Shown here: piece after piece, positions 499-15,067 of the stretch
Numbering within the stretch: the stretch's first letter is position 1
How the letters are laid out: every line of letters begins with the position of its first letter
Source: Paramacrobiotus metropolitanus
Lineage: Eukaryota > Tardigrada > Eutardigrada > Parachela > Macrobiotidae
DNA length: 64,000 bases
Reading direction: 5' to 3'
NCBI RefSeq assembly: GCF_019649055.1
Contig: NW_026570304.1
Span: 496,001 to 560,000, forward strand
Program-made: the position numbers and the translations under genes
The notes under the pieces: model-generated
Seen by the model: the letters and a program-made list of their open reading frames with translations, nothing else
The model's database searches: none
Told to the model about the DNA's origin: nothing

Positions 499-702
499 AG
501 TAGAATGAGCAGCCACTGAGCGCCAAGAACACCCCAGGGGGCCGCGCAGTAACACCTGCCGGCCATTAACTATACAATTAAATTTAATTTAAATAAAACA
601 ATAGGTATACGTAATTTATACTAATTTAATTAGATTACGTAATTCATTAGTGGAAACAATGGCTAATTTACAGTTTTTTTAATTAGTGAAATAAAAATAC
701 TA
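499..702 (+). repeat. Left terminal inverted repeat of the Polinton
   Basis: The repeat starts AGTAGAATGAGCAGCC and matches the reverse complement of 14858-15062. The first ~155 bases are identical except for one C/A difference near 565 (ccggcc against ccggca). The inner ~50 bases are AT-rich and diverge through small changes. AG at the tip is typical of Polintons, where the integrase processes and joins the ends and a terminal protein may prime replication. Confidence 0.96.
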
Positions 703-1099
703 CAGTAGAGTAGCTTTAATGAAAAAATTTCCGCCGTTTTATCCCGGTCACCAAAAACCATGAAAGAATTCCCCGTACCACATTTGCAAAATATCACCTC
801 CGTACCACGCATACAACATTCAAAACAATTTTATCCCCTCGTTACCGCGCGCATAACTAAAAACAACAAATCATCCCCGGCACCACGCGTACACATAACA
901 AGAAAACAAATGACACTGCAACCACTCCGATGCATTTACGAAGCAAAACAAAACAACTACGCATCCACTCATTCCGAATTCCGCGTTCCGTCCACATCGC
1001 AGTTCCACTCAACGTCCTGCAAAAAGTACGAGTATTAATGTAAGTTGAATAGCGACAGCGTTTTTTCTTTAAATGATTAATCAGGCACACGCGTACAGC
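703..1099. other. Polinton subterminal region, no supported gene
   Basis: It lies between the left TIR and the last exon of the histone-fold gene. Its plus strand is unusually poor in G and rich in A and C from about 760 to 1020, with scattered tccgtaccacgc-like words. Open frames exist on both strands, but none has recognisable motifs. It probably holds the 3' flank of the minus-strand gene. Confidence 0.5.
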
Positions 1100-2985
1100 T
1101 CAGAACATGCGCAGTCGATTATGGAACTGCTTCGCAGTCATTTCCCCGGCAGGCACACGTGTAATGTTCCCATCCACTGCAACAACAACACCGTTTGGCT
1201 TCCGAACGCCACCCAGCAACTGCATACCCTCGACGGCAGCCTCCGCTTCACGTGGCTGGATAACATCGGTGCCGGCTAAAAGACATAATTGTTAAAATGA
1301 TTAAAATGGTAATAAAAAAACGATTAAAATTATTAAAAGAGTACCACTGCTTGGCTCAGCAGACGACGCCGAAGACGACGACGAAGAACGATCGCGCGCG
1401 GGGGCCACCCGCTGACCACCAAGTCCACGAGCCGTTGCCGGCAAACTGGGATTCACTCCATTAGGCCGACCAAGGCAGATACGCTTCGAGAGTGCAGGGG
1501 CTGGACTCGGTGAGCGCGCACGGACCGGCGCAGCTGTGCGTGTACCGCGGGACCCTTGCATTCCACGAGGCGCACGTCCGCGCGGTGCTCCCCGCGAACA
1601 CACGGCAGTTCCTGGGGCTTTCTTTGGGGATCGAGTGCGCTGCACTTCAGCCGTAGATGTACGGCCACGGGCCGACACAGCATTTCCACGCCCTCGAATG
1701 GCCCGTCCGGGCCGCATGCTACGTCCGCGTGTGCCTACAAAAACATTTTTGCACATAATTATGAACTTAATGCGTCAGAATACGTACGCGGAGTCGGACT
1801 GGTCGGAATCGGCGCGACTTCTGCATCTTCATCCGAAGATGACTCCAGCGCCAAAGGACGCTTCCATCCACCGTGCGCGATAGGTTGTGCGGCTACGGCC
1901 ACGGCCGGTGCAGAACGTTGTGGTGCGGCAGCCGGTACGTACAGGTTTTGGCGGCGCTGTTTCTGGTACTCCAGATATTTATCAAGGTCACCTTCCGGAC
2001 TGAACCGAGGATCGTTGCGCAAGTTCTGCTCCCATGCATACTGAACAAGGTCAAGATTGCGCGGCATCACGGTTACACGATTGGCATGATCAGCCGCTGC
2101 GGCTCCTTTCTCGCAAATCTTAATAAGGAGGAACTCTGCCTTCTCCTGTAAAGCAAATAAGGCAGCCGACTGGATCGTAAAGTCAGGCCGTATGCCCTCC
2201 ATGACCTCCCGCACAAGACGCTGAAATGCCATGCGACCGCAAATTAATTCAACAGAATTCATTCGTTCGCGAAGTTTCCGCATTGCTTCGCGTCCCATTC
2301 GGTGGGTCAAAATGCGGTCCGGATCCGGTGCGCGCGTCGATGAGCCAGCTACACTCACTGCACTCGTACCACTGTCAGCAGTCGTACCACTGGCACTACT
2401 ATGTGGTGCATCTTTGTCAGGTTCCGCGACATTGGACTGCACAGCGACGTCCATATCGGCCTCGGGCTCCTCTCCGACACCCATTTCCTCCAAATCCGCC
2501 CGATTGGCCGCCGCGTCCTCTTCATCTGCTCCTTCGTCACCGGCCAGCTCCACACTATCTGCCGGTGGAGCGCGAACTGAGCTTATCATACGATTCACGG
2601 CCGCCAGTGTGCTAAAAAAATCGAATTTGGTTAGCATTAGCTTGTTGTAATACATAACATTATGCACAATGACCACCAAAATCGAATAATTTTATAAAGC
2701 AAAGTTCAAAAAGTTAATACACCGCGTACTGTACCTCAGGGCCGATGCGTCTGGAGTCTGTGCGGGAGTGTCTTCCGCAGTGTGTCCGGATGTGCCGTCT
2801 TGGAGCGGCGGAGTGGCACGCCCCTCTTCGTCGGAGGAGTAGCTGTCCCCGATGTCCGTGGTCAGTGGTTTACCAGTCTTACGACAGAGCAGCTGCTCCG
2901 TAGACGTTCGGGGTGTGGTACGGGGTAGGCCGGATGAGACGGGTTGCTGCTCCGGGATCTCTATAGAATCATCCATCTTCAACAA
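1100..2985 (-). CDS. Histone H3-fold protein with acidic and RG-rich arms (4 exons)
   Basis: My model joins 2985-2735, 2611-1788, 1734-1345 and 1275-1100. Every junction is GT-AG, the phases agree, and the total is 547 codons including TGA at 1102-1100. A second start, MDDS, lies at 2976. Exon 1 and the start of exon 2 are acidic and Ser/Thr-rich. Exon 2 holds an H3 fold (bases ~2030-2290), alignable without a gap from the alpha-N helix (AMRKLRER) through alpha-1 (AFQRLVREV), alpha-2 (QSAALFALQE) and NRVTVMPRNLDL. Loop 1 has canonical H3 length, not the longer loop common in CenH3. The His of the H3-H3 four-helix bundle is kept (ADHANR), but the paired Asp is Asn. Exon 3 is Arg/Gly/Ser-rich with RGR and SPKK motifs. 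Exon 4 encodes a compact ~57-residue module I do not recognise. Packaging or chromatin engagement of element DNA is inference. Confidence 0.85.
2612..2734 (-). other. Intron 1 of the histone-fold gene, containing IR cassette 1
   Basis: On the minus strand it opens with gtacag after CCTGAG and closes with a T-rich tract and TAG. The outer arm of IR cassette 1 provides the polypyrimidine tract and acceptor. Splicing restores frame between a split Ser codon on each side. Confidence 0.75.
2614..2693. repeat. Inverted-repeat cassette 1
   Basis: Arms read aaatcgaatttggttagc and accaaaatcgaataattt, separated by ~40 AT-rich bases. It belongs to a six-member family confined to this Polinton. This copy lies inside intron 1 of the histone-fold gene. 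Confidence 0.9.
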
Positions 2986-3087
2986 AAAAGATATTATTAC
3001 TCCCTAACAAATAAAATGCACCGAATACTTGCTCTAAACCGTCCTATACCATAATTGCTGTATATGAGTACAGTATATGTGAAGAGT

Positions 3088-3176
3088 GTAAAATTTCGAA
3101 TTTGGTAAGCAACTTGATCTACGAATACCATAACTAGTATGAAATGCCAACCAAAATCGAACTTTTATTTTTTCAG
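3088..3176. repeat. Inverted-repeat cassette 2
   Basis: It reads gtaaaatttcgaatttgg, a ~45 base spacer, then accaaaatcgaac followed by a pyrimidine-rich tract ending in cag. On the plus strand the ends look like a donor and an acceptor, though no flanking exon is known here. Confidence 0.88.
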
Positions 3177-3295
3177 CAGAATCTGTACAATAACCATGTT
3201 TTTACACCTCAGAATACGTCGCTATCACAGTAAAACGCACCGAATACTGCATCCTACATTACAACCTATGTATAAGTACAGTACATATGAATAAC

Positions 3296-3380
3296 GTAAA
3301 ATTTCGAATTTGGTAAGCAACTTGATCTACGAATACCATACCAGAACGTGATGCCAACCAAAATCGAATTTTTATTATTT
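3296..3380. repeat. Inverted-repeat cassette 3
   Basis: It is nearly identical to cassette 2 over its left arm and spacer (gtaagcaacttgatctacg in both). The acceptor-like cag of cassette 2 is lost here. The pair arose by tandem duplication of the surrounding ~210 bp. Confidence 0.88.
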
Positions 3381-3562
3381 CGTAAAAATCTGTACAGTAA
3401 TTATTTTTTTTTTACACCGCAGAACGTAACATATCACAAAAACAGAAGATCACATTATCAAAATGGAAGCGCAGACATCAGAGATTCAAACTACAGAATC
3501 TGTACAGAAACAAGTATGTACAAAATCAGAACTAATTTGTACAAAAAGCATATGTACAGTAA

Positions 3563-4207
3563 TTAAAGGTCGGTATGCTCATTAACCACCGACATTTCGG
3601 TACTTTCGGTACTGATAGCGTGGGCTACAGGAGCGCAACGACGCTTAAGAAAAACCACTGCGCTTGATATGGCCGCAATCAGGGTAATTACGCCGATGAT
3701 GGCGTAAACGACGTTGGGCACATTGAACGCGCTGTCGGGCTCGTCGGTCGGCGGCTTGGTCATCGGTGCCGGATCATGGTTCGCGGTGGTGGTTGCCGCG
3801 GGTTTGCTCGGCGATATACTCGTGCCCGAATCAGTCGTGTTCAGCGGCACCGTCGTTGTGGCTGTGACGGGGAGCCGTCCACAGTCTGATAAGACCGTAA
3901 ACTTGACGGTCGCGGGCTCTCCACAATCCAGGATCGGATTACCACGGGCATCGAACAGGCGCAGCCGCGGGAAAAATCGGGCAAGAGCAGCGTACGGGAC
4001 ACTATACAGCCTGTTCTTCTGGAACAGGACGACCTGCACCCAGTGTTCTGCAGCGCGCAGTGTGGGCAGAGTAGTCAAGTCCCGCCCGCCGCAGTTCACA
4101 ACGCCCTCGATGCGCTCGCACTGACAGTGGCTGAAACAGCGCGTCCATACACCGCACGCGCTGCTGGCCACTGACAGCAAGACCAAGACCTGAAGCAGGC
4201 GGTGCAT
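3563..4207 (-). CDS. Type I membrane protein with Cys-capped leucine-rich repeat
   Basis: This 214-residue protein begins with a signal peptide (MHRLLQVLVLLSVASSACG). An N-terminal LRR cap follows, with the spacing C-x3-C-x-C-x8-C, then DLTTLP and roughly one or two leucine-rich repeats (FPRLRLFDARGNPILDCG), like the short LRR ectodomains of platelet glycoprotein Ib-beta type. A Thr/Pro/Ser-rich stalk at ~120-160 leads to a transmembrane helix (VVYAIIGVITLIAAISSAVV), a basic stop (KRRC) and a short tail. I chose the ATG at 4207; ttgcag directly before it suggests a 5'UTR intron. Such a protein is not part of the usual Polinton set. A surface adhesion role and host capture are inference. Confidence 0.82.
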   Translation of the reverse strand: MHRLLQVLVLLSVASSACGVWTRCFSHCQCERIEGVVNCGGRDLTTLPTLRAAEHWVQVVLFQKNRLYSVPYAALARFFPRLRLFDARGNPILDCGEPATVKFTVLSDCGRLPVTATTTVPLNTTDSGTSISPSKPAATTTANHDPAPMTKPPTDEPDSAFNVPNVVYAIIGVITLIAAISSAVVFLKRRCAPVAHAISTESTEMSVVNEHTDL

Positions 4208-4376
4208 CTGCAACAAAACGATGAGTTAACAGCATTCTGACTTTGAACGCATATTCAACCAGATACGCAGACACGCACACACACACACACAAACATACAG
4301 TAGTTCTGCCGAAACTTTTGCCGATGTACCGTGCCACTGAAGATATATTCGCCGTTATTTTCACACGAGTTTGAGA
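4208..4376. promoter_or_regulatory. Divergent promoter region with CA microsatellite
   Basis: It separates the minus-strand LRR gene from the plus-strand ATPase block. An (ac)n run lies at ~4271-4292. The short spacing implies a shared bidirectional promoter, and a possible 5'UTR intron of the LRR gene ends at 4208. No clear TATA box is visible. Confidence 0.5.
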
Positions 4377-5129
4377 ATGTCTTTAGAAAACGCCGCTAAC
4401 GCTCTGTTCCCGGTCGGAACTGGAGAACGTATGATGAAAAACGGTGTTGTATACTACAGCACCGTTCAGCAGGACGACGTTCATATGCTACAAGGAGTTT
4501 ATCGGGATCTTTTTGCCCGTTTTACAGACGCTCAGAAGTATTATCCTGATCTCACTATTGGTGTTAGAGCGCAGTTTGTTAAGGAAACTTGGTTCCATCA
4601 ACAGCCGCTTGGAGAAGTAGCGTTTGCACTGTATCCTAAAGAGGAAAAGGGGACTAATATCGCCTTCAGAGAGAATCCAACTAAGTGTACCGAGGAAAAT
4701 TGGAAAGAATGGCGCCCCATCGTTCGCGATTTGGCACACGGTCGTATGCGGAACTATTTGAAGTATCAAATCAAGAAATGGCGCAAAGCCTGCCCCAGCG
4801 TCGGCTATCGTATCCAGCAAGTTATTACGTTCGAGTGCCCTGACGGTAGTGGTGTCAAAGTTTGGAATGAGACATGCACTGGTATATGTGGTGACGACGA
4901 CGATATCGTTCCTCCCGTACCAAAATTCGATTATTTTTATCAACGCGTGGACAAGTTCGAAAAGCTGAAGAAACTGGAACAGGGACGAGTTCCGTTCACT
5001 CAACCAGACGATCTGGGAGACGGGAAACGAGACACAAAGGGCGGGTTCACACCACCGGTTCATCCATCTTGGGGTGACGAGTTTGACGGAAAGCCGGCTG
5101 ACTTACTCATTTTTGACGATGCCAACTGA
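4377..5129 (+). CDS. Polinton protein of unknown function, first gene of plus block
   Basis: This 250-residue protein starts MSLENAANALFP; an ATG two codons upstream at 4371 is also possible. It is soluble and mixed-charge, with aromatic-rich motifs (WKEWRPIVRDLAHGRMRNYL), a basic stretch (KKWRKACPS) and an acidic, Pro-rich C-terminal third (DDDDIVPPVP, DLLIFDDAN). I see no catalytic motif, signal peptide or membrane helix. It leads a same-strand run with the small membrane protein and the packaging ATPase, so a virion or assembly role is plausible from context only. Confidence 0.7.
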   Translation: MSLENAANALFPVGTGERMMKNGVVYYSTVQQDDVHMLQGVYRDLFARFTDAQKYYPDLTIGVRAQFVKETWFHQQPLGEVAFALYPKEEKGTNIAFRENPTKCTEENWKEWRPIVRDLAHGRMRNYLKYQIKKWRKACPSVGYRIQQVITFECPDGSGVKVWNETCTGICGDDDDIVPPVPKFDYFYQRVDKFEKLKKLEQGRVPFTQPDDLGDGKRDTKGGFTPPVHPSWGDEFDGKPADLLIFDDAN

Positions 5130-5228
5130 TCAACTACAACTGGTACGTTTTTGTTCTGCAAATTCAGTTTGAAATTTCCGGTTTGAAATCATATTTTTAA
5201 TTTTGAAATTTTTTGATCCATAGAAATC

Positions 5229-5474
5229 ATGGACCCTGAAACGCCACCACCGATTCCCGTAGAGGAAAAGAACTCGCGGGGAATACTCATCTGGGCTCTA
5301 TTCTACGCCATACCGTTTGTATTTTCTCAACTTTTTCGTTTGGGTGCAGTCATTGTATTAAGAGTTACTGATCGATTTCCTATCCACAACATCATTATGC
5401 CTCTGATTTCGTTCGTTTTAAATGAATCACGTCGTTTGCTACTCGGACGTAATAATGGAAGTACAGTTGAATGA
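5229..5474 (+). CDS. Small membrane protein of the Polinton
   Basis: This 81-residue protein starts MDPETPPPIPVEE and has a Pro-rich N terminus. A hydrophobic helix follows (GILIWALFYAIPFVFSQLF) and a second hydrophobic stretch lies near 50-68 (IHNIIMPLISFVL), then a basic end (RRLLLGR). The 3' end overlaps the ATPase start at 5455 by 20 bases in another frame. Overlapping frames are the norm in this block. Its function is unknown; a membrane-associated virion protein is a guess. Confidence 0.62.
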   Translation: MDPETPPPIPVEEKNSRGILIWALFYAIPFVFSQLFRLGAVIVLRVTDRFPIHNIIMPLISFVLNESRRLLLGRNNGSTVE

Positions 5475-6114
5475 TGTGTTTTATCACCCAACTTCTATGT
5501 TATTCAGTGGGAATTCTGGTTCTGGTAAAACCACGTTTGTGGCAAATATTCTCCGATTTAATAAACTCTCGCAAGTTCCGGAACGGGTTTATTGGTTTTA
5601 TAAACAGTATCAGTCCTTATACGATCAACTTGTAAAGGAAGGATTTCCAATTACTTTTATCGAAGGTTTGCCAGAAGAAATTTCAAAGCCGAATTTTTTT
5701 GATAAAAAACAAGTTAACGTTTGTGTGATTGACGACTTGCACCTTGAAGAAAAAACGAGCAAACACGTTGCCCAATTATTTTGCAACGGTGGACGCCACT
5801 CCAATACAACGGTCATCTATCTGACACAAAATCTGTTTTTTAAACAGAGTTTTGGTCGAGATATACGGCTAAACGCCAAAGTCATTGTTTGTTTTAAAAA
5901 TCCTCAGGACCGGCAGCAACTACAAATCTTAGGACGCCAACTTTTTCCTAATAAACTTAATTATTTCATGGAAGCCGTCACGGCCGCTTTTGAGAAGCCT
6001 TTTGGTTATATTGTAATTGATTTGCAACACAATATAAGCGATCGATATCGGCTGAAATCGTCGATTTTCGGAGAGAACTTTTCTGGCTATACTGAAGTTT
6101 ATCTACAGGCATAA
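5455..6114 (+). CDS. FtsK/HerA-type genome-packaging ATPase (A32-like)
   Basis: This 219-residue ATPase has a Walker A loop at ~20-27 (GNSGSGKTT) and a Walker B strand (VCVIDDLH) with tandem Asp. A conserved polar block follows (GGRHSNTTVIYLTQNLF), as in A32-like enzymes of Polintons, virophages and NCLDVs. In that family the enzyme translocates DNA into the preformed capsid. I prefer the ATG at 5455 over 5422 because it leaves the usual short lead before Walker A. The TAA overlaps the next ATG (TAATG at 6112-6116). The frame is intact. Confidence 0.92.
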   Translation: MEVQLNDVFYHPTSMLFSGNSGSGKTTFVANILRFNKLSQVPERVYWFYKQYQSLYDQLVKEGFPITFIEGLPEEISKPNFFDKKQVNVCVIDDLHLEEKTSKHVAQLFCNGGRHSNTTVIYLTQNLFFKQSFGRDIRLNAKVIVCFKNPQDRQQLQILGRQLFPNKLNYFMEAVTAAFEKPFGYIVIDLQHNISDRYRLKSSIFGENFSGYTEVYLQA

Positions 6115-6443
6115 TGGAACGAAGTAAAACCGTTTCCAATATTGATTTACTGTCGTCAATAGCTAAGAGCAAGCCAAAACTTGCGAAAGCGATTATTAAA
6201 AATTCGGAAGACACTTTGATTGATGCCATTTCCGAATGTGCGCTCCAGATTGTTGAAGGCACGGTTCCCGTTTCTGAATCGTCGAAAGCTCAACGAGTTC
6301 GACGTTTATTGCCTTATTTAAAGTTATTGTCTAAAAAGTCTGTCTCCCGAAAAACTAAACGAAGTTTTCTGTTAGCAAAAGGTTTTGCTTTATTGTCTTT
6401 AATACTGCCTCCTGTGCTTAATTTTGTTTTGGGAAACGCTTGA
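6114..6443 (+). CDS. Conserved small helical Polinton protein
   Basis: This 109-residue protein resembles a short protein found in many Polintons and adintovirus-like elements. Its signature is 'KPKLAKAIIKNS... L.DAISECALQIVEGTVPVS', followed by a basic segment (RVRRLLPYLKLL, KKSVSRKTKRS) and a hydrophobic C terminus (FALLSLILPPVLNFVLG). The ATG overlaps the ATPase stop, and the 3' end abuts the next gene. The function is not established; the placement points to virion assembly. Confidence 0.8.
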   Translation: MERSKTVSNIDLLSSIAKSKPKLAKAIIKNSEDTLIDAISECALQIVEGTVPVSESSKAQRVRRLLPYLKLLSKKSVSRKTKRSFLLAKGFALLSLILPPVLNFVLGNA

Positions 6444-6445
6444 AA

Positions 6446-7174
6446 ATGGCACCACGAAGGTTTTTGTTAAATGAAGAACAGCTACGTGCTATCAGGAAAT
6501 CGCGAAGCCTGTCTCCCGTGCCTGTACAGCCTACGCATGCTCATCTGGACTATTATGCAAGTCCATTGACCAAGTCATACCGAGATATGACAAACTCACT
6601 GCAGAATCCGACAATGACTAGCAGACAGCGTTTAAATGCCCATAACGACGCTATGGAACGGTACAACAATTATATAGGACAGGCTACACTGCCTATGCAG
6701 CAGCATCCAGCGCAGCATCCTTTCGACGAAACTGATGCTGCAACGCATGGTAGCGATAAGTCCACAGATAGAGTGGTTTTTCTACTACCAGAGAAGCAAC
6801 AGAACAACGCACGCCATTTGCTAACGCACTTACAAGAGTACGGTCATTTTTCAATTGGGAAAAACCTGGAACTTGCAGTAAACGGGATTTTGAAAAACGG
6901 TACGAACGTTGTGGATTTAATCCGTTGGCTAACTACACCTACAAATCCAGGACCGTCACAAACTCCTCCAAATGGAATAGAAGAAGTATTCGAGGCAATG
7001 AAAAGTTGCAATGCGCCGGCTACGTTATTGCCGAATATGCAGCGTCGTAGAGCATATTTAGATTTTGAACCTTCCGATTTTTCTTTTAATACGCCAGAAC
7101 GAAACAGCAGTGGCAAACGAAGAAGCAAAGCCACCCCAGTTACGGTTCGCAAAAACTGGAAACATTTTGGCTAA
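6446..7174 (+). CDS. Conserved Polinton protein downstream of ATPase
   Basis: This 242-residue protein starts MAPRRFLLNEEQL; an ATG at 6440 is also possible and overlaps the preceding stop. The N-terminal half is polar and Gln/His/Pro-rich. The middle has a pattern seen in other Polinton proteins: VVFLLPEKQQNNARHLLTHL, then NLELAVNGILKNGTNVVDLI, that is, a helical LL..L segment followed by 'G..I..GTN..DLI'. The C terminus is basic (SSGKRRSKATPVTVRKNW). It is the last gene of the plus block, and IR cassette 4 begins 6 bases after its stop. A minor structural role is inferred from context. Confidence 0.75.
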   Translation: MAPRRFLLNEEQLRAIRKSRSLSPVPVQPTHAHLDYYASPLTKSYRDMTNSLQNPTMTSRQRLNAHNDAMERYNNYIGQATLPMQQHPAQHPFDETDAATHGSDKSTDRVVFLLPEKQQNNARHLLTHLQEYGHFSIGKNLELAVNGILKNGTNVVDLIRWLTTPTNPGPSQTPPNGIEEVFEAMKSCNAPATLLPNMQRRRAYLDFEPSDFSFNTPERNSSGKRRSKATPVTVRKNWKHFG

Positions 7175-7498
7175 ATCATCAAAATTTCGATTTTGGTGTG
7201 CATCTATGTTAACAAACCAACTCTGTTGATTGTATTGCCTACCAAAATCGAATTTTTCCGAGATATGCAAACTGTCGTGTGTGTTCAAGTGTTTAAGAGT
7301 CAAATAAATTCCGGAACCAAACGACGTTCTTTTTCCGCATTTTAATAGATAACCTTATACATAGGCAGAGAATATTGCTGCTTTTTCGGCATATGCTTCA
7401 AACATTTTCGAGGGTTTTACACACATGCAATTTCCTCTTAGCAAAAGCATACAGCATTTTATCATTGAATTGCAGTCTTTTGGGGTATTCAAACTTAT
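7175..7498. other. Intergenic gap between convergent Polinton blocks
   Basis: It lies between the plus-block stop at 7174 and the minus-block protease stop at 7499. It contains IR cassette 4 at 7181-7258 and otherwise AT-rich sequence with AATAAA-like words (aaataaa near 7303). It probably carries the 3' processing signals of both transcripts. I see no gene. Confidence 0.6.
7181..7258. repeat. Inverted-repeat cassette 4
   Basis: Arms are aaaatttcgattttggt and accaaaatcgaattttt, about 17 bp with a ~44 base spacer. Here the cassette is intergenic, directly after the stop codon of the plus-strand block. It cannot be an intron of that gene as annotated. Confidence 0.92.
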
Positions 7499-7898
7499 TT
7501 ACAATTTCACGTAACGTAAGACCGCGACAAGAGTAATAAAGAAAAATACAGAGAAGAGACCACAAAGTTTAGACTGAGGATGTTGGAGTTGGATCCGATT
7601 TTCCTGATAATGTCCATTGGTAGCCGGAAAATTTTCCGAGATAAATTTGTCAAACTCCATGCCGTAAAATAAAGAAGACTTACCAAAAAATCAAAGAAAA
7701 CGACATTTTACTGTTCTTAGCAAATATAGCTAGCCAGTGCTGTCCGGGTTCCGCGTGCTTGTCCGAGTTCACAATCAGTGCGAGCGGAAATTTTGGACTG
7801 GACACGGTTGGTAGCGTGTCTCGTGAGAACACTCCGAGGAATATTCTCTGAAGACAGCTATCGTGCTGCACGATATCTAGAAGCTTGATATTATTCAT
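7499..7898 (-). pseudogene. Adenain-like cysteine protease, frame-disrupted
   Basis: It starts at ATG 7898 (MNNIKLLDIV), three bases past the capsid gene stop. The first ~70 residues match the maturation-protease fold: FLGVFSRDTLP, ALIVNSD and the catalytic His in PGQHWLAIF. Near 7680-7700 the frame is lost. The Asp-containing strand (FFDF) is in a second frame. The rest, with YGMEFDKF, IQLQHPQ and the probable nucleophile in KLCGLF, is in a third frame that runs to TAA at 7499-7501. In the family this enzyme cleaves capsid and core precursors. The break could be a true inactivation, assembly error at T-rich tracts, or an unusual intron; gtaagt occurs at the site, but no sensible acceptor follows. 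Confidence 0.78.
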
Positions 7899-7900
7899 GT

Positions 7901-9244
7901 TTAAGCACGTTTGTATGGGCAATAAACGTTCCGTCGTGCGTCAATTTCTACGAGGGCGTTCTTATTGAAATAGACCAATACGGAAAGAGTGGCAGTCGTT
8001 TGAGCCGAAAAAGATAAGGACAATCCTAGAACTCCTTTTTTCGTAGGATTTATGCACGTGTGGTCTCCAATATCAGGTTCAAGGTTAAAACCGAAAATTG
8101 CATAACCTTTGGCCCAATCTTTTTGATCAATCGCCAGTGTTGAGTTCTTGTAAATCATACCAGTTGTTTCCAAGAGACTCAGGTACCCGTCGCGTGTGTT
8201 TGTAGCTGAAACCTCTAAGGCTTTCCCAGGAAACGGTTCGGAATTGACATAAGTGATAATCTGGCTCAGTTCATAGGGCTGAAAATTATACGGGTTGCGA
8301 GTTAAGTTTCCTCCAACGGCCTCCGACAAAACTAGAGCAACGAAAAGTTGCTTAGGGATGACTCCCCGAAATAAGTCGTCGCGAGACCAATGACTGCTTC
8401 CAGATGGGATGGTCATCTCGAGAACATGTGATTCCACGTAAGGAATCATTACATTTCGTTTTTGAAGCATAATCTCATGAGCCAGCAAAAACTCAGGGTC
8501 CAGCTTGACTTTGCGCAGTTTAAGCGTTGCCCGTTTTATAACAATTTTCAAATCAAGTGGCGCTTGAGGACAAAGCAACGCAAACTTGTCTTTAGATCGT
8601 GCCAATAATAATTTCAAGTCCACTTTAGGTGGAATAAGACGTGATTGGTTCGCTAAGTCACTAGGAAATTTCATAAATAAATGCCATGAATTTCCGCCCT
8701 CGATCATGCCACGGCGCGTAAGGAACCCATCATTCAAAACTAGATTGTTTGGATTAGCTGCAGGCAGTGTAATATAATTCACGTCAAAGCTTCCGGCAGT
8801 GTTCAAAACAAAACCAGAGCTTAACAGCTGTGTTCGACCTTCAGAGCCAAAATTCAATAGGTTTTCGAAGTAGGATGAGTAATGTGATAAGGAAGGAACA
8901 TATGAAACAGTCTCACTGTTTAATAAAAGTTCATGTCCGCTAAATAGGCTACGTGTAAAGTTGTTAACGACGCCCCAGTTCAAATCAGCGGCAGGAGCGG
9001 CTCCTGCAGTGGTTAAAACAGTTACATCCAGTAAAATAGTGCTGTTTGCTAGATCTATCATTTCCTCTGGGGTTCCTGAATCCTCCCAAGCAATCGTATC
9101 CACGTTCAAAGTATTTCCTATTGGATTATAGGAAACATACTTCGCGGATCTGATTGCCGTTTGAGTAGGCGGCAAAGAAAAATGGTCCAATTCCGATTTT
9201 AAACACAAAGGTGTATTAGCATCCATTCTCGTGAGAGTTAGCAT
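7901..9244 (-). CDS. Major capsid protein (double jelly-roll hexon type)
   Basis: This protein of up to 447 residues begins MLTLTRMDAN; the internal ATG at 9226 would avoid overlap with the upstream gene. It matches the transposon-derived family typified by C. elegans F54H12.2, which is the Polinton capsid. Visible marks are LDHFSLPPTQTAIRSAKYV, DLANSTILLDV, VNNFTRSLFSGHELLLN and YSSYFENLLNFG near the N terminus, and NPYNFQPY, DGYLSLLETTG, GYAIFGFNL and SFSAQTTATLSVLVYF near the C terminus. Family members trimerise into pseudo-hexameric capsomers. The frame is intact. It sits between the core protein and the protease in a tightly packed minus-strand run. Confidence 0.92.
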   Translation of the reverse strand: MLTLTRMDANTPLCLKSELDHFSLPPTQTAIRSAKYVSYNPIGNTLNVDTIAWEDSGTPEEMIDLANSTILLDVTVLTTAGAAPAADLNWGVVNNFTRSLFSGHELLLNSETVSYVPSLSHYSSYFENLLNFGSEGRTQLLSSGFVLNTAGSFDVNYITLPAANPNNLVLNDGFLTRRGMIEGGNSWHLFMKFPSDLANQSRLIPPKVDLKLLLARSKDKFALLCPQAPLDLKIVIKRATLKLRKVKLDPEFLLAHEIMLQKRNVMIPYVESHVLEMTIPSGSSHWSRDDLFRGVIPKQLFVALVLSEAVGGNLTRNPYNFQPYELSQIITYVNSEPFPGKALEVSATNTRDGYLSLLETTGMIYKNSTLAIDQKDWAKGYAIFGFNLEPDIGDHTCINPTKKGVLGLSLSFSAQTTATLSVLVYFNKNALVEIDARRNVYCPYKRA

Positions 9245-9750
9245 AATAATCCCGAAAGCGGAACGCGCATACGCTTCTTCTTGCGCAAACGTTTATGAAC
9301 TCTTCGTTTTCGGCTACGTCTTTTATGAGAATGCTTCTTCGGTTTGGTAAAGGGAGCTGGCTTGGACTTGCGCGAGCGTCGTCTGCGCTTCTTTTTTACG
9401 ATTCCGTGTAGCTGTCCTTTGAGCTTTGATTTTGTGGTCCGGCGTTTCCGGCGCTTTTTGCCCCGCCCTTTTTGAATATCAGACATCATATTACCGACAG
9501 CTTCTCTCGTTCGATTTTGAGCTGAATCTAATAACGTTGTCTTGTTCTGTAGAACATCAGAAACAACGTTTCTACCCAGACGAACCAGATTAGGATAAAT
9601 AATATTTTTTGCTGTCCTAGCAAGGCTGCCAAAAAAATTTCCAAGCGAACCGTATCCGTGCTGCACATGTCCAACCGCGCTGCCATGTTGCGGTGAAAGA
9701 AGGTGCACGTAAACTTGCGCAGGAATCGCAAAACTTGAAATCTCATCCAT
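9238..9750 (-). CDS. Basic virion core protein
   Basis: This 170-residue protein has an N-terminal half with the Polinton pattern GYGSLGNFFGSLARTAKNI followed by an amphipathic helical stretch (GRNVVSDVL). The C-terminal half is extremely basic, with long Arg/Lys runs (KKRRRRSRKSK, RKRRVHKRLRKKKR). The layout resembles DNA-condensing core proteins such as adenoviral pX/mu-type proteins. Start and stop are shared with neighbours: TAATG with the upstream gene at 9750, and an overlap with the capsid ATG at 9244. Binding and neutralising packaged DNA is inferred from composition. Confidence 0.82.
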   Translation of the reverse strand: MDEISSFAIPAQVYVHLLSPQHGSAVGHVQHGYGSLGNFFGSLARTAKNIIYPNLVRLGRNVVSDVLQNKTTLLDSAQNRTREAVGNMMSDIQKGRGKKRRKRRTTKSKLKGQLHGIVKKKRRRRSRKSKPAPFTKPKKHSHKRRSRKRRVHKRLRKKKRMRVPLSGLLC

Positions 9751-10157
9751 TATTTACGGCGAAAATGTAATTGCAAAACTGAAACACCTTTCTCAAATTC
9801 AACAGACTCTCCATCTAAACTGGTGATCGAGACTGAAATGCGATCAAACTGAGTGTTCTCAACGCTGATATATTTCGAAGATGAAGGAACGAATGCGCTT
9901 CCGTCTGCAACACTTTTTCGAGATAAAACAGCCAATAGAGAAACGCGTGTTCTGTTAAACACTTGGCTGCGAACCAAGTCGCTAAACACGCACAAGGTGT
10001 CACGAGTTATCGATCGGGGTTTTGGACACTGTAAGTAGCACAGTGCTACTTCAAATTCTCGCAGTAGCTGAACATAACTCGGTAAAAGCACAACGAATTC
10101 CGACGCCGTGTTTCCAGTGCCACTATCAGATGTCAAGGTGATATAGCAATCATCCAT
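9750..10157 (-). CDS. Putative minor virion protein of Polintons
   Basis: This 135-residue protein starts at MDDCYITLTS. The opening matches a conserved Polinton/adintovirus protein: 'YITLTSDS... N.ASEFVVLLP... LLREFEVALCYLQCP'. In relatives this N-terminal beta-rich module begins a longer protein next to the capsid gene; here it is short. It is the first gene of the capsid block, and its ATG lies 5 bases from IR cassette 5, which therefore occupies its promoter or 5' region. A minor capsid or penton role is my inference, not an established assignment. Confidence 0.68.
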   Translation of the reverse strand: MDDCYITLTSDSGTGNTASEFVVLLPSYVQLLREFEVALCYLQCPKPRSITRDTLCVFSDLVRSQVFNRTRVSLLAVLSRKSVADGSAFVPSSSKYISVENTQFDRISVSITSLDGESVEFEKGVSVLQLHFRRK

Positions 10158-10161
10158 TCTT

Positions 10162-10240
10162 AAATATTCGAAATTGGTATGCAATATGATGCGCTATAGT
10201 CGTGTGAGTTTAGCAGTGTACACCAAAATCGAATTTTTCA
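10162..10240. repeat. Inverted-repeat cassette 5
   Basis: Arms are aaatattcgaaattggt and accaaaatcgaattttt with a ~45 base spacer. It fills the whole gap between the integrase stop (10238) and the start of the capsid block (10157). It may serve as both the 3' end of one transcript and the promoter of the next. Confidence 0.9.
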
Positions 10241-11334
10241 AATTAACTGAAGTCCATACCGCTTAAGTTGACTTAAAGTGATCCATTTGTCGAACTTTTT
10301 ATTCCAGCCAACAAAACGTATCAAAACTTTGTTGCCTTTCTTAGATAAAACAGCAATTTCAGCAGTCTCTGGTGTATTTTTTGGGACTTTCTGCAGTTCC
10401 CAAACGTAAAATCGTCCTTCTAACATTTCACGTTTCAAATCTTCCACTCGGAACATGGTTATGCCATCATGGGCTTCAACAGCTTTAACTTTGTAAATTT
10501 CTATTGACCACCCTGGAGTATATCCTTTTTCCATTGCCGTCTTCTTCAAAGACAGACGCACAAAATCTCCTAATTTTGGAATTTCCGTGCTTAGTTTCTT
10601 GTGTGCATTTTTGGTTTTGTCCTTGTAAATGATCTTGTGAAATTCTTCTGCATTTTCAGCCGTTATTTCTGATGGCTTATGGTATCCTAAACTTCTATGT
10701 GGGCTGTTGTTGTATGCGTCCACGAGTTTCTGAATTACATCAATCCATCTTTTCGTTCGATTATGCGTAAAATAACGGAACAATCTAGTCGATAAGGTGC
10801 GATTCAGACGTTCAACTTGGCCAGCTTTAATTTCTGCATTATTAGTAGAGAAATGAAGAATTTGTTGCTGATTTAACAAAGACTTGACATCAGTATTATA
10901 AAATTCGGTTCCCAGATCGGTTTGGAATTTTTTGGAAACGGTCCACAACGATTAAATATTACTTGTAAAGCATCACGTACTTCAGAGGCAGTCTTCCGCT
11001 TAATCGGTTCCACCCATGCATACCGAGTAAAACAATCTTCCACGACTAACAAAAAATTATACCCATCATTAACAGATACATACGCACTGTAGTCTATTAA
11101 GTCCGCTTGGAACTGTTCGTTAGGACCGGAAACAACAAAATTGAGACGAGGAAAGTGTTTGCGAACTGGTTTATGTAGCGTGTAGGCCGGCTGTTTGCGC
11201 AGGAACTCTTTCACGGTGTCCGTCGACAATTTTATATTGCTCTGCTTGCTGGCCTCTCGGTGCAATGCTTGTATTCCACCGTAACCACCCGGCGACGCCA
11301 CGTCAAAATAAATTCTTCTCAGCAAGTTTTCCAT
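10238..11334 (-). pseudogene. Retrovirus-like DDE integrase with chromo-like tail, one frameshift
   Basis: The N-terminal part (ATG 11334) has the Polinton lead IYFDVASPGGYGGIQALHRE and the first catalytic Asp in QADLIDYSAY. The second Asp (QTDLGTEFYN) and the Glu (AEIKAGQVERLNRTL) are in a -1 frame that starts at an A6 run (T6 on the plus strand, 10928-10933). The C terminus has an SH3-like segment and a chromodomain-like end (KVLIRFVGWNKKFDKWITL) running to TAA at 10238. Integrases of this group cut and join Polinton ends. A single-base deletion, assembly error or -1 ribosomal frameshifting would each explain the break. The start overlaps the upstream gene by 32 bases. Confidence 0.88.
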
Positions 11335-11812
11335 GAATAATCTTTAGCAGACGCTTATCAACCCCCTTGGGAATAGTGCCATCTAGAAACTGCTTTCGAA
11401 TTTGGGATCTCCAAACAGTTAATGACTTATAGAACATTATGCAGTCGCAGACTTGAACAGATTTCCCGGTATACTGTTCCACAACAAGAATAAACAACTC
11501 ACGCAGTAATCGCTTGTCAACGGAGTTTGCAATTTCATAGAAGTGAGCAGACTTATAGCAATGATCGTCGACACGATTGCCACAAGTATGCTGATCATCG
11601 ATACGATAACATCCGCGGCAACACATACGTTCGCTTTTCAAAAACTGACAATTGATGAGAAAGCTGAACAGATATTTAAACGCAGCAGTGCATCTCTTAA
11701 AAATGATTTGTTTATCGCAACAGACATCTAGACGCTGATCGCAAGCGACACACAACCCCGTAATCAACTCGTATTTTAATTTCCCATAATTGTTCGATTT
11801 CAGAGACGACAT
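11303..11812 (-). CDS. Cys-rich protein between polymerase and integrase
   Basis: This 169-residue protein starts MSSLKSNNYGKL. The first ~80 residues hold many Cys pairs (GLCVACDQRLDVCCDK, MCCRGCYRIDDQHTCG) that could form zinc-binding sites. The second half is helical and Leu-rich (VDKRLLRELFILVVEQY, VWRSQIRKQF). Part of its sequence repeats weakly (VDKRLLREL and VDKRLLKII). It overlaps the integrase ATG in a different frame, so it could also be a separated N-terminal Zn-binding module of the integrase. I do not recognise a family. Confidence 0.62.
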   Translation of the reverse strand: MSSLKSNNYGKLKYELITGLCVACDQRLDVCCDKQIIFKRCTAAFKYLFSFLINCQFLKSERMCCRGCYRIDDQHTCGNRVDDHCYKSAHFYEIANSVDKRLLRELFILVVEQYTGKSVQVCDCIMFYKSLTVWRSQIRKQFLDGTIPKGVDKRLLKIIHGKLAEKNLF

Positions 11813-11857
11813 GATTACAAGCGTACAGTGTTAGACAAGAACAATGAAATTTAGCAG

Positions 11858-14569
11858 CTATTCATGCACAAAATATTCTTCCCCATCAACGTCCTCAGTC
11901 AGCATTGCAGGATTGAAACGTTCAAGCAACTGATTTACAACTTCAAATTCAAGTGAGCCGATACTAGGAAAAGGGATACCATGATAACCAAGCGGATACG
12001 TCACAAAATCACGACCAATAGCACGACTGGTAAACGTACAGCCTATACGGCGAACAAGAGGCACTGTCTGTATTGTCAAGTTATCTGTATTCTTTCTGAA
12101 TGTTATACTTTCGCATGCAGTAACTTGGGACGGCCCTGTCCCGAACATCATAGACTTCAGAACACCAATGTTGACCCGTTCCTTCAACCCGTCAGACTTA
12201 GGAATCCCTTTACACTTTATACGCTGTTCTCCACTGCTGAGGAGCTGACAGTAGGTTTTCTTTGCCAGTGCAGCCCACTCCACGAAATGCTCACCGCCGA
12301 GGTCATCGGACAAATCGCCTAGTAGGTCGCCTGTAGGAGGATCTGGCTCGCCCGGGGTGCTCACGAACATCACGGAATCCGTGTCACAGTAGAGCAAACG
12401 ATCACCAACAAGCCGTAAAGCTTTAAGGAGTTTGAGTTGGCCGTACTCGGTGGTAAATTTACCAATGTACGGATTTGTTCGCTTGTTAGGCGCAACCTAT
12501 GCACGAATTTGTAATTGTTAACTCAAACGGGAATGCAATTAAAAACTTTCTGCACAATTCATACCCAAGCAGCTTTCTCTTCGTACGTCACATCGATGCA
12601 CTTTCCATCGTTGACCATTCGAATGTCGTTGGTAATATAACGACTGTTGAAAACGATGTCCTTCATTTCCTTGTACGTTCGACAGTACGTATTCTGGCGG
12701 TACACGGCTTTCATAACAAACCTATTAAGAAATATGAATTAAGAAATGTTAAACATTCCTAATTCACATTTCTTACCTTCCCCAAACTTGGTTGACAAAC
12801 GTTTTAGCTGCTGCGCGCATCCCGGGATTGTTGGTAACTTCGTCGGGGGTGAAAATAATTCCCAAAACTTCTTCATATTTCCTGCCGAACTCTTTCTTAT
12901 GTTCTTCGGTGATAACATGTGCAGGAAAGTCACTTGTAACTATCTTGGTGCGAATGAGATCCAAAATAAATTTGGCGAATACGCCGCCGGTTTTGCTTTC
13001 CGGGTTATATTTGCTGCTGTTAGGAAAATGGTGAATCTCAAAAACACGACGAATGATGTAGCCGTCTTCAACTGCCTGTTCCAGAAGTGGTGTAGTCCAA
13101 GCCCCTTCGAATGCACGTTGTCGATAGTCATGTGTGCACGGCTTTGCGATGTTCAGCTCTTCCGAGCACGTACGACATAAGGTGTACACCGTACGACCAT
13201 CAGCCAATCGGAGCGGGAGAGTAGGTATGAATAACTCATACGGCGGCCATACTTCGCAGTACACAACGCCAAACCAATCCTTAATGTTAAACGGTTCGCC
13301 AGGTTTGCTGAAGTTAGTGAATCGGATCTCAGGGTGGCCAACAGGATAGCGGTCGAAAACCATAAATGACGGATACAGTGAAATAAAATCCAGGACTTTC
13401 CCTTTGGACCCTTCTGGGATTTCTTTATACATACAGAATATGTCTGTCCGACCTCCAAAGAGGTAGTCACGCACATTTAAACGCGGCCGAAAATTCGGCT
13501 GTGCAACGATCTCCCCGGCTTTCAGTTTTTCATCATATTCGCACTCCCATATGGTTGTCAATAGTACAGGAACGTCCTCGTACGGATCCGTAACAGTGCG
13601 TGCAAAGTTATTGAGGTATGCTTCGGTCTGCGCGACTTCTTCACGAAGTGTGCCAAAGGTCTTCATTCTCACCGTGTTAACTTTGTTTGGGTTCGGAAAA
13701 CATTTCGGACATCCATGCCAGAAACAACCGTAGAACTGATAGGCTGTTCTAGTTGCAGCGCACCACCCGTCGACAGGTATTCTTCCGAAGTACTTCTCTC
13801 CTTCTGCAGACCTAACTGTTTGTATCGGTTCGTCGAGCCGACGGGCACGGTCGGAAATCCAAAGCAGTGCTTTTGTGCTCTGATTCTGAGTACCTCCGTA
13901 TCCGCTTGGTGGTGGTATGCCAATAGTGTCGGGTTGAAGGTAGTGCACTTGAAACGCCTTAATCACAGCTGATGGGCTTGTGGGTTCGTCAAATGGATCT
14001 AGACCCGGAAATTGCTTCTCAAATGAAGTTCGCGTAATCTTGCAGCATTCGCGCAGAACCAGAACATCATTGACGCAATACTTCTCGCACTCATCCATAA
14101 GTTTGTAGGTGGCACCATGAATTTCTCTTGCTTCCTCGTACCAGGCGTCAAACTCTTGTTTCTTTTTAGCAGACATGCGTTCTAAACCAAAATACTGCTT
14201 ATCTGCAAAATTCGATTTTGGTAAGCAGTACTGTACTGGATACCTACGAGAAAACTCTGTTGCAGACCAAATTCGAACTTTTTACCTGGTAGGCAGCCAA
14301 CGTAGTTTTCGTTCTGAGTGTTGAAAGTGTACGGAAAAAATCCTTTCAGCACTAGATGACTTATTCCCAGGTCCTTCGGGAGCTCAGCTAAAGACCGCGG
14401 CATGAATGATAACGTATCCACAAACCGTGCGTTGATTCCTGGAATTTTGATGAGTGTTAGGCTCGCACCATCTTGAATCTTTGTAACGTAATGTCCTTGA
14501 TTTTCCAGGGATTTTAGTATAAAATAATTGTCGTATTTCCTTCCGTTGTGCGATAAGAATGTACAATTT
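11858..14569 (-). CDS. Protein-primed family B DNA polymerase, N-terminally truncated
   Basis: Exons 14569-14286, 14202-12777, 12721-12565 and 12496-11858 join in frame across GT-AG introns of 83, 55 and 68 nt, giving ~830 residues. Exo II (SHNGRKYDNYFIL) and Exo III (YCVND) are present, as are the pPolB block GCFWHGCPKCF, motif A (FISLYPS), motif B (KTFVNQVWGRF) and motif C (YCDTDSV). GGRTDIF also fits the protein-primed group. Upstream of the acceptor at 14570 no frame supplies the Exo I Asp-x-Glu, and only ~290 bases remain before the TIR. Family enzymes are longer, so the N terminus (Exo I and beyond) is probably deleted. The role would be replication of the element from a terminal protein. 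Confidence 0.9.
14203..14285 (-). repeat. Inverted-repeat cassette 6, exactly a polymerase intron
   Basis: On the minus strand it opens gtaaaaagttcgaatttggt and closes accaaaatcgaattttgcag. Its boundaries are the donor and acceptor of the first polymerase intron. Removing it joins ...YVGCLP to DKQYFGLERM, a block expected to be continuous in pPolB proteins. Confidence 0.92.
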
Positions 14570-14857
14570 CTAATCGTTCAGTTCTAATCAATTTAGAATT
14601 TTTTCCAAGCCAAGAAATGGCGTTGTGAGATGGACGCCGTGTGCATAGCGTCTTCAAGACGCTAGCCGAGACAAGCGTCTTTGTGCACGCAGCGCCCATA
14701 TACCGTACACGCGCGCACAGGTAAGGTGGCGCTGCTAGCAGCGCGCTTTTTTCTATGTACATATGTACATATGTACATACGTAATAGTTACGTACTATTA
14801 GTTTTTTATATGTACAGTTAGTTTTTTTGTGTGTACATTATGTTTTTTAGTTTAATT
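14570..14857. other. Polinton right subterminal region with palindrome
   Basis: There is no supported gene. It holds a near-perfect palindrome agcgtcttcaagacgct at 14647-14663 (8-bp arms, one central base), flanking copies of aagcgtc, and a run of atgtacatatgtacat repeats at ~14755-14780. This is where the missing N-terminal polymerase exons would be expected. Confidence 0.6.
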
Positions 14858-15062
14858 TAGTATTTTTTTATTTCGTTAATTAAAAAACTATAAATTAGCT
14901 ATTGTTTACGCTAATGAATTACGTAATCTAATTAAATTAGTATAAATTACGTATACCTATTGTTTTATTTAAATTAAATTTAATTGTATAGTTAATTGCC
15001 GGCAGGTGTTACTGCGCGGCCCCCTGGGGTGTTCTTGGCGCTCAGTGGCTGCTCATTCTACT
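14858..15062 (-). repeat. Right terminal inverted repeat of the Polinton
   Basis: This is the mirror of 499-702 and ends in CATTCTACT. The host sequence resumes with gtttc at 15063. Confidence 0.96.
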
Positions 15063-15067
15063 GTTTC
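15063..15067. repeat. Target-site duplication, right (gtttc)
   Basis: This is the partner of 494-498 and marks the integration footprint of the Polinton. Confidence 0.75.

Follow-up and report, generated by a model that had tools for sequence, protein, structure and literature searches.

Why would a capsid-coding transposon carry a histone gene, does the gene belong to the element or to the host, and what could its product do there? The window, that is, the whole stretch of 64,000 nucleotides that was analyzed, corresponds to C84:496001-560000 in the genome of the tardigrade Paramacrobiotus metropolitanus (169.8 Mb in 533 contigs), all of which was searched; position 1 is the first letter of the window. 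As the original prediction had stated, a gene encoding an H3-type histone fold is located inside a Polinton, between terminal inverted repeats (TIRs) at 499-15062. The features are listed in the table below.

The inverted-repeat arms of the element (498-697 and 14864-15063) were 94% identical across 200 nt, the identity started exactly at 498/15063, and the 5' end of the TIR reads 5'-AGTAGAATGAGC.... By eye, the ends of the element start with AGTAGAATG, the left one at 499. The TIRs of Polintons/Mavericks typically start with AG, and so do those of this element. The target-site duplication of Polintons is typically 6 bp; no 6-bp duplication was found at the ends by a scripted search, and a 5-bp direct repeat (GTTTC) was seen by eye on both flanks. 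The larger ORF of the DNA polymerase B (12776-14176) matched DNA_pol_B_2 with 67 bits (E 1.9e-18), and the ORF at 11861-12397, which had no Pfam match, was assigned by its position. The integrase showed an rve match of 23.8 bits (E 5.5e-05), under the cut-off of 32.6. The major capsid protein (MCP) had no match by sequence in Pfam or PDB; its homologues were found in arthropods and amphioxus, among them spider proteins named 'F54H12.2', which we take to be a usual label of Polinton capsid genes. A public contig of 26611 bases (P0019) encodes a capsid protein 60% identical to this MCP. ORF4371 was without a Pfam match, and the LRR gene, which is also variable, encodes what looks by eye like a membrane protein. 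Upstream of the H3 gene, a 75-nt direct repeat (3058-3132 and 3266-3340, 89% identity) lies in the intergenic region.

Features of the Polinton in the window and of the H2A-like ORF of a second Polinton family
Feature	Position	Strand	Remarks
Polinton element	499..15062	.	TIRs; ends and flanks read by eye
H3 gene, exon 1: N-terminal part, low complexity	2735..2976	-	ATG start, donor GAG/GTACAG
H3 gene, exon 2: acidic segment, alpha-N, histone fold, linker	1788..2611	-	acceptor TTTTTTTAG, donor GTACGT
Histone H3 fold, alpha-N to alpha-3	2044..2307	-	PF00125, PDB H3 chains, AF2, Foldseek
H3 gene, exon 3: Arg/Gly-rich basic tail	1345..1734	-	27 Lys/Arg, 3 Asp/Glu
H3 gene, exon 4: C-terminal 58 residues and stop	1100..1275	-	GT-AG intron 3 in the window
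LRRNT/LRR-like protein gene	3566..4216	-	LRRNT 16.9 bits, below cut-off 25.8
Conserved Polinton ORF (ORF4371)	4371..5126	+	adjoins H3 in the same 15 loci as LRR
Packaging ATPase, A32 type	5422..6111	+	Pox_A32 30.3 bits, cut-off 22.8
Major capsid protein (MCP)	7904..9244	-	assigned by position and relatives
Strongly basic protein	9241..9750	-	net +41 over 170 residues
Integrase, two ORFs	10241..11334	-	rve and Tudor-knot matches below cut-off
DNA polymerase B, two ORFs	11861..14176	-	DNA_pol_B_2 in 12776-14176
H2A-like ORF	L029:1026-1373 = C158:28825-29172		plus six further copies

The H3 gene was reproduced as a four-exon model encoding 543 amino acid residues, with GT-AG introns. When the model was compared with two related elements (L009 and L011), introns 1 and 2 were found to have aligned splice sites, namely the donor of exon 1 and both the acceptor and the donor of exon 2, and the frame was open from exons 1 and 2 into exon 3. 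The ATG of exon 1 was found at the same distance in L011, and in L009 an ATG was placed by length. Exon 4 was without support in these two loci, where the frame, read with the homologue of intron 3, ends in a stop after residue 442. The predicted four-exon protein of about 540 residues thus stands for introns 1 and 2 and is unsupported in L009 and L011 for exon 4. In this model the N-terminus is acidic (12+/36-) and is followed by the H3 fold at residues 185-273, then by a linker, the RG-rich tail and a short end.

The histone identity was determined by sequence and by predicted structure. Residues 125-212 of the ORF at 1762-2679 (minus strand) matched the Pfam Histone profile (PF00125) with 60 bits (E 3.6e-16), above the cut-off of 26.4, so the profile search proposed along with the prediction gave a significant result. 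In the PDB, searched by sequence, H3.Y was the best match (67.7 bits, E 1e-17), and the best 60 of 175 matches were all named H3. The alignment from alpha-N, which had been claimed to run without gaps to the end of alpha-2/loop 2, was confirmed and even reached into alpha-3. Loop 1 has the canonical H3 length, as had been claimed, compared with three extra residues in the host CenH3-like gene. When a segment of 109 residues was modeled with AF2, four helices (13-26, 34-46, 54-84 and 89-105) were obtained in the order expected for alpha-N and alpha-1 to alpha-3, with moderate scores (mean pLDDT 69.3, pTM 0.38); the model of the entire 306-residue ORF was poor (pLDDT 47.5), with the helices in order. 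All of the 50 PDB matches listed by Foldseek were nucleosome or histone-octamer entries, four of them at E<=0.001. The top matches were histone entries with a probability of 1.00 and E about 1e-3, but with a TM of ~0.46 and an rmsd of ~14; of the 50 listed, 5ay8_A, 1aoi_A and 8kd3_O are H3 chains according to the PDB sequence search. A viral fold library yielded 14 matches when E values up to 10 were allowed, none of them at E<=0.001; the top one was the H3 of Clandestinovirus (E 0.69).

To locate relatives, public proteins were searched with the 306-residue ORF, which gave none among candidates limited to about 168-535 residues, and with an alignment of the element H3s, which gave 18 matches. 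One of these (P0001) was the copy of the gene at contig C16 of Paramacrobiotus itself, modeled by NCBI as gene LOC129585178. Of the other 17, seven were examined in full, and they included canonical H3s in long or fused models (P0002-P0004) and other H3-like proteins (P0008, P0010 and P0017). In IMG/VR, no relatives were found for the H3 alignment, the MCP or the ATPase, the latter two being single-protein queries that detect close relatives only.

Pfam histone matches numbered 64 genome-wide, and 19 of them start at most 7 kb from the start of a Polinton ATPase or MCP, as counted with marker lists covering the contigs of interest. Twenty histone loci were fetched by choice from the match lists. 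The H3-fold gene adjoins the LRR gene and ORF4371 in 15 of this non-random sample of 20, which together with the window makes 16 elements, and in 13 of the 15 the ATPase was also present, whole or in part. The remaining five loci comprised a host H3 pair, a host H3 variant, the CenH3-like gene and two other histone loci, and none of them had a match to the other Polinton ORFs of the window at E<=1e-3. The original prediction had allowed for a missing histone match, or for a host gene joined to this locus by an assembly chimera; the match is significant, and the latter is ruled out by the same Polinton neighbors in 15 of the 20 fetched loci. The gene, which was to be looked for in Polintons of related species according to the original prediction, occurs in further elements of this genome, and it is a resident gene of H3 type in a clade of tardigrade Polintons. 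It was probably captured from a host.

Three lineages of the element H3s were distinguished: A (the window and L009-L014), B (L015-L017 and L024) and C (L018 and L020-L023). By eye, lineages A and B look homologous outside the fold too, and one origin is suggested for them by the common site and the common flanking residues. The H3 tree gave no resolution (0 of 11 branches starred, seven open, long branches meeting), so that a single capture and repeated capture fit it alike. About 20 Polintons with MCPs 59-68% identical to that of the window had no histone match nearby, nor was one seen close to four partial MCPs with identities of 74-97% (C57:667781, C84:601269, C244:32158 and C266:32362). 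In the two relatives without H3 that were examined (L031 and L032), the LRR gene was present and no histone-like ORF was noticed at that end; the single large ORF of L031 at the H3 end was without a histone match. A further H3-like lineage, carrying RIVRIISQFINPELRWEVPALIALQES or a close sequence, was observed in L044, L045 and L046 (C103:318k, C251:26k and C103:290k), and near two of these no matches to the Polinton ORFs of the window were found within 4.9-5 kb on one side.

The element proteins were then compared with host H3 residue by residue. We take H113, R116 and D123 to be the positions of the H3-H3' bundle, and the contact residues are numbered on the same assumption. His113 and Arg116 were retained in six of six element sequences, and Asp123 in five; the claim of a kept bundle His with an Asp-to-Asn exchange in its partner is thus correct for the His and, as regards the Asn, holds for the window copy and not for the other five sequences compared. 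R69, R72 and T118 were also retained in 6/6. Lineages A, B and C1 have lost Arg63, A and C2 have lost Lys115, and C1 and C2 have lost Arg49 (retained in A), whereas Arg83 was replaced in A and retained in B and C. Core positions mostly stayed hydrophobic, although position 95 is Lys in A and positions 78 and 98 are Arg in B. Where host H3 has AAIG at the chaperone site, the window copy has AALF. Identity to the fold of host H3 amounted to 36-37 of 89 residues in A, 31 in B, and 46 and 48 in C. The conserved basic H3 tail ARTKQTARKSTGGK was absent, and with it K4, K9 and K27; an acidic stretch replaces it in all three lineages (6/6 proteins measured, the most acidic 40-residue window being -10 to -15).

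In having an H3 fold with a divergent tail and, in lineage C, a Trp directly after position 83, which we take to be a CENP-A feature, the element proteins resemble CenH3/CENP-A. They differ from it in that loop 1 is not longer, and the host owns a CenH3-like gene of its own. A CenH3 origin was rejected, since the aligned element sequences have a loop 1 of canonical length. In the host CenH3-like gene (L025:4383-4988, on C26), loop 1 is three residues longer than in H3.

Substitution rates were determined for the fold and the tails separately. For the window and L009, dN/dS was 0.12 in the fold (bootstrap 0.04-0.25) and 0.37 in the tails; for the window and L011, the values were 0.13 (0.06-0.28) and 0.29. 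Of 1000 bootstraps, 3 (L009) and 36 (L011) gave a value for the tails that was no higher than that of the fold. The fold is thus under purifying selection in the lineage of the window, to which this claim is limited. For the entire exon, L009 and L011 gave a dN/dS of 0.54 (with dN 0.030 and dS 0.214 in the fold); between L020 and L021 of lineage C it was near one (0.85, over about 24 changes), and for L018 and L020 dS was saturated.

The H3 end of the element was found to diverge far more than its core. From position 5200 onwards, over all of the sequence compared, L015 and L017 of lineage B shared 96-100% with the window. Their identity to it was 84-88% at 4300-5200, 70-78% within the LRR gene and, inside the H3 coding sequence at 1900-2200, about 55%; at 3100-3700, which is mostly intergenic, it was 89-90%. 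Per gene, the window and L015 shared 98% in the ATPase, 99% in ORF6440, 75% in the LRR gene and 52% in H3. L009 shared 96-100% with the window between 5200 and about 7450, 92-99% at 3100-5200 and 69-91% at 1000-2800. Near-identical cores with a divergent H3 end indicate that the H3-LRR end is a mosaic, with old alleles on young cores, which may have arisen by exchange between elements, by fast divergence, or by both. Homogenization of the repeats at 3058-3410 could be an alternative source of the stretch of 89-90% identity.

A second histone was found in a further Polinton family of this genome (C158/C41), the assignment to which rests on nearby capsid matches and not on TIRs. An ORF of 116 residues matched H2A in the PDB (E 2.7e-17) and the Pfam Histone profile with 27.8 bits (cut-off 26.4). 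Seven copies were found at 94-100% identity, compared with 39-51% for host-type H2A genes. Each of the seven follows a sequence that matches the C158 capsid protein, 3.8-5.2 kb downstream of it and on its strand; the capsid matches are 70-100% identical, several being partial or containing stops. The H2A match itself was free of stops in C158, C90 and C31, contained one or two in C50, C41 and C10, and was split in C21; it was absent in four elements (C103, C142, C57 and C32) with full-length MCPs of 91-97% identity. Loop 1 of the protein is three residues shorter than in H2A, and one loop-2 Arg is replaced by Asp. A decayed H2A-like fragment was also observed at L041 (C36:52.9k), some 4 kb away from the ATPase gene of a Polinton.

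As to the function, we prefer, at a probability of about 40%, the reading in which host H4 is the partner of the protein and the resulting chromatin lacks a markable tail. Produced in the nucleus of the host, the protein would bind H4 and build tetramers via the retained His113/Arg116 bundle, and the DNA of the element or the adjacent host chromatin would acquire an H3 without the K4/K9/K27 tail and could so escape the H3K9/K27 silencing marks. The acidic and RG-rich parts may recruit or repel other factors, and the rapid change at the H3-LRR end would reflect a race against the chromatin defenses of the host. An H4 borne by the element was looked for and rejected, which fits host H4 as the partner: PF15511, which is not specific for H4, includes host histone clusters among its matches and would miss a very divergent H4, gave eight matches, none of them near the listed Polinton markers. 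The reading is favored by the H3 identity, the fixed neighbors, the selection on the fold, the retained H113/R116, the acidic stretch, the divergent H3 ends on 96-100% identical cores and the second histone. It is weakened by the replaced contact and core residues (R63, R83, K115 and the charged core positions), through which nucleosomes or H4 pairing would lose strength, by the AALF site, by the relatives without a histone, and by a selection signal confined to the lineage of the window. Precedent counts on both sides: single viral H4s and H3s were judged likely to join host nucleosomes in the part of PMC9145170 cited here, and the divergence of the element H3s from host H3 is far above that of the viral H3s thought to do so.

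The same replacements can be read in another way, which we consider somewhat unlikely. Acting as a decoy, the protein would titrate host H4 or the H3-H4 chaperones and starve nucleosome assembly on the element DNA; its acidic N-terminus would act like a chaperone, and the protein itself would stay out of nucleosomes. The acidic stretch in all six proteins, the rapid diversification of the H3 end and the loss of the R63, R83 and K115 DNA contacts in the window lineage while H113/R116 are kept are consistent with this. However, Arg83 is kept in B and C, and Arg49, Arg69, Arg72 and Thr118 are kept in A, so that the loss of DNA contacts is not general; an H3 that sits in chromatin and cannot be marked is preferred over the decoy.

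It is unlikely that the H3 protein helps to fold the 14.5-kb element DNA in the capsid, as in marseilleviruses and medusavirus. The RG-rich basic tail would suit such a role, and some giant-virus histones occur in virions, according to the part of PMC9145170 consulted. Nevertheless, the separate +41 protein adjoins the capsid gene and is itself a candidate core or DNA-condensing protein, which makes packaging by H3 less likely; moreover, the PF15511 search showed no partner histone in the element, the roughly 20 relatives do without any histone match, and H3 clusters with the variable LRR gene, away from the capsid gene. Among the mechanisms originally put forward, condensation of the element DNA is therefore the weaker one, given this basic protein and the acidic N-terminus of H3.

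That the H3 protein guides the integrase, or the DNA of the element, to the chromatin of the host is quite improbable: H3 is a nuclear fold and the integrase C-terminus showed a chromodomain-like match (Tudor-knot, 18.4 bits, below the cut-off), yet adintoviruses have chromodomain integrases and no H3 gene is mentioned for them in the cited portion of PMC11071296. That the gene is a host H3 retrocopy or a captured passenger drifting with the element is very improbable, for although some copies contain stops and L020-L021 evolve at a dN/dS near one, the fold is under purifying selection in the window lineage, open frames of 288-330 codons exist in A, B and C, one copy was modeled by NCBI, and the neighbors are the same in 16 elements.

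The known viral histones provide the closest comparisons. The carriers described, in the literature as partly covered here, are giant viruses, bracoviruses, a nudivirus and a few small circular viruses. Marseilleviruses and iridoviruses (H4-H3 and H2B-H2A doublets) and medusavirus (four histones) also have divergent H3 folds; these giant viruses carry full or paired sets, unlike the lone H3 found here and the lone H2A of the other family (PMC9145170 and PMC11222145, cited in part). For single viral H3s, the cited part of PMC9145170 gives identities to eukaryotic H3 of mostly 73-89%, against 31-48 of 89 residues for the element H3s. From the same source, the H3 of the Manila clam xenomavirus is likewise a lone H3 with an altered N-terminal tail in a small animal DNA virus. 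It differs in being 77% identical to the host fold and in having a lysine-rich tail, compared with 35-54% and an acidic N-terminus in the elements, and the RG tail, the length of ~540 residues and the Polinton with PolB and integrase set the element gene further apart. The bracovirus CvBV-H4, also treated there, is a single captured histone whose tail extension acts on host chromatin; it is an H4, ~87% identical to that of the host, in a wasp polydnavirus. In the 'Histoid' genes of Xeno-class adomaviruses and of a Tegillarca adomavirus with adintovirus-like capsid genes, a histone-like gene adjoins virion genes of Polinton/adintovirus type; in the section of PMC11071296 on which this is based, these genes of adomaviruses and of a tailtomavirus show remote HHpred similarity only and carry no H3 assignment.

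Among the matches listed from the openly licensed literature, no paper was recognized that describes tardigrade Polintons or a Polinton with both an integrase and a histone. The novelty originally claimed has to be narrowed with respect to the clam xenomavirus H3 and the adomavirus 'Histoid' genes, which were already published. The finding extends the theme of viral histones to an unexpected kind of element.

Here a histone is kept, within the chromosomes of an animal, by a transposon that codes for capsid proteins and integrates itself, and the capture thus sits where chromatin silencing is a main defense. The H3 and H2A genes together suggest that these elements interfere with the packaging of host DNA, and the H2A of the second family suggests that histone capture is a recurring strategy. 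More tentatively, histones may have been captured at least twice, H3 and H2A in separate clades, and used on element DNA as fast-evolving, exchangeable counter-chromatin proteins. If so, there would be an arms race at the level of histones between a eukaryotic transposon or virus and its host, in which variants that lack a markable tail, with host partners, evade heterochromatin. The natural pairs of elements with 96-100% identical cores and different H3 ends would make the effects of the H3 alleles comparable.

Outside this genome, a metagenome contig of 4264 bases (P0012) was observed to encode a protein of 355 residues in which an H3 domain follows a part of ~230 residues; this part had no Pfam match and looks protease-like by eye, and the contig is possibly viral.
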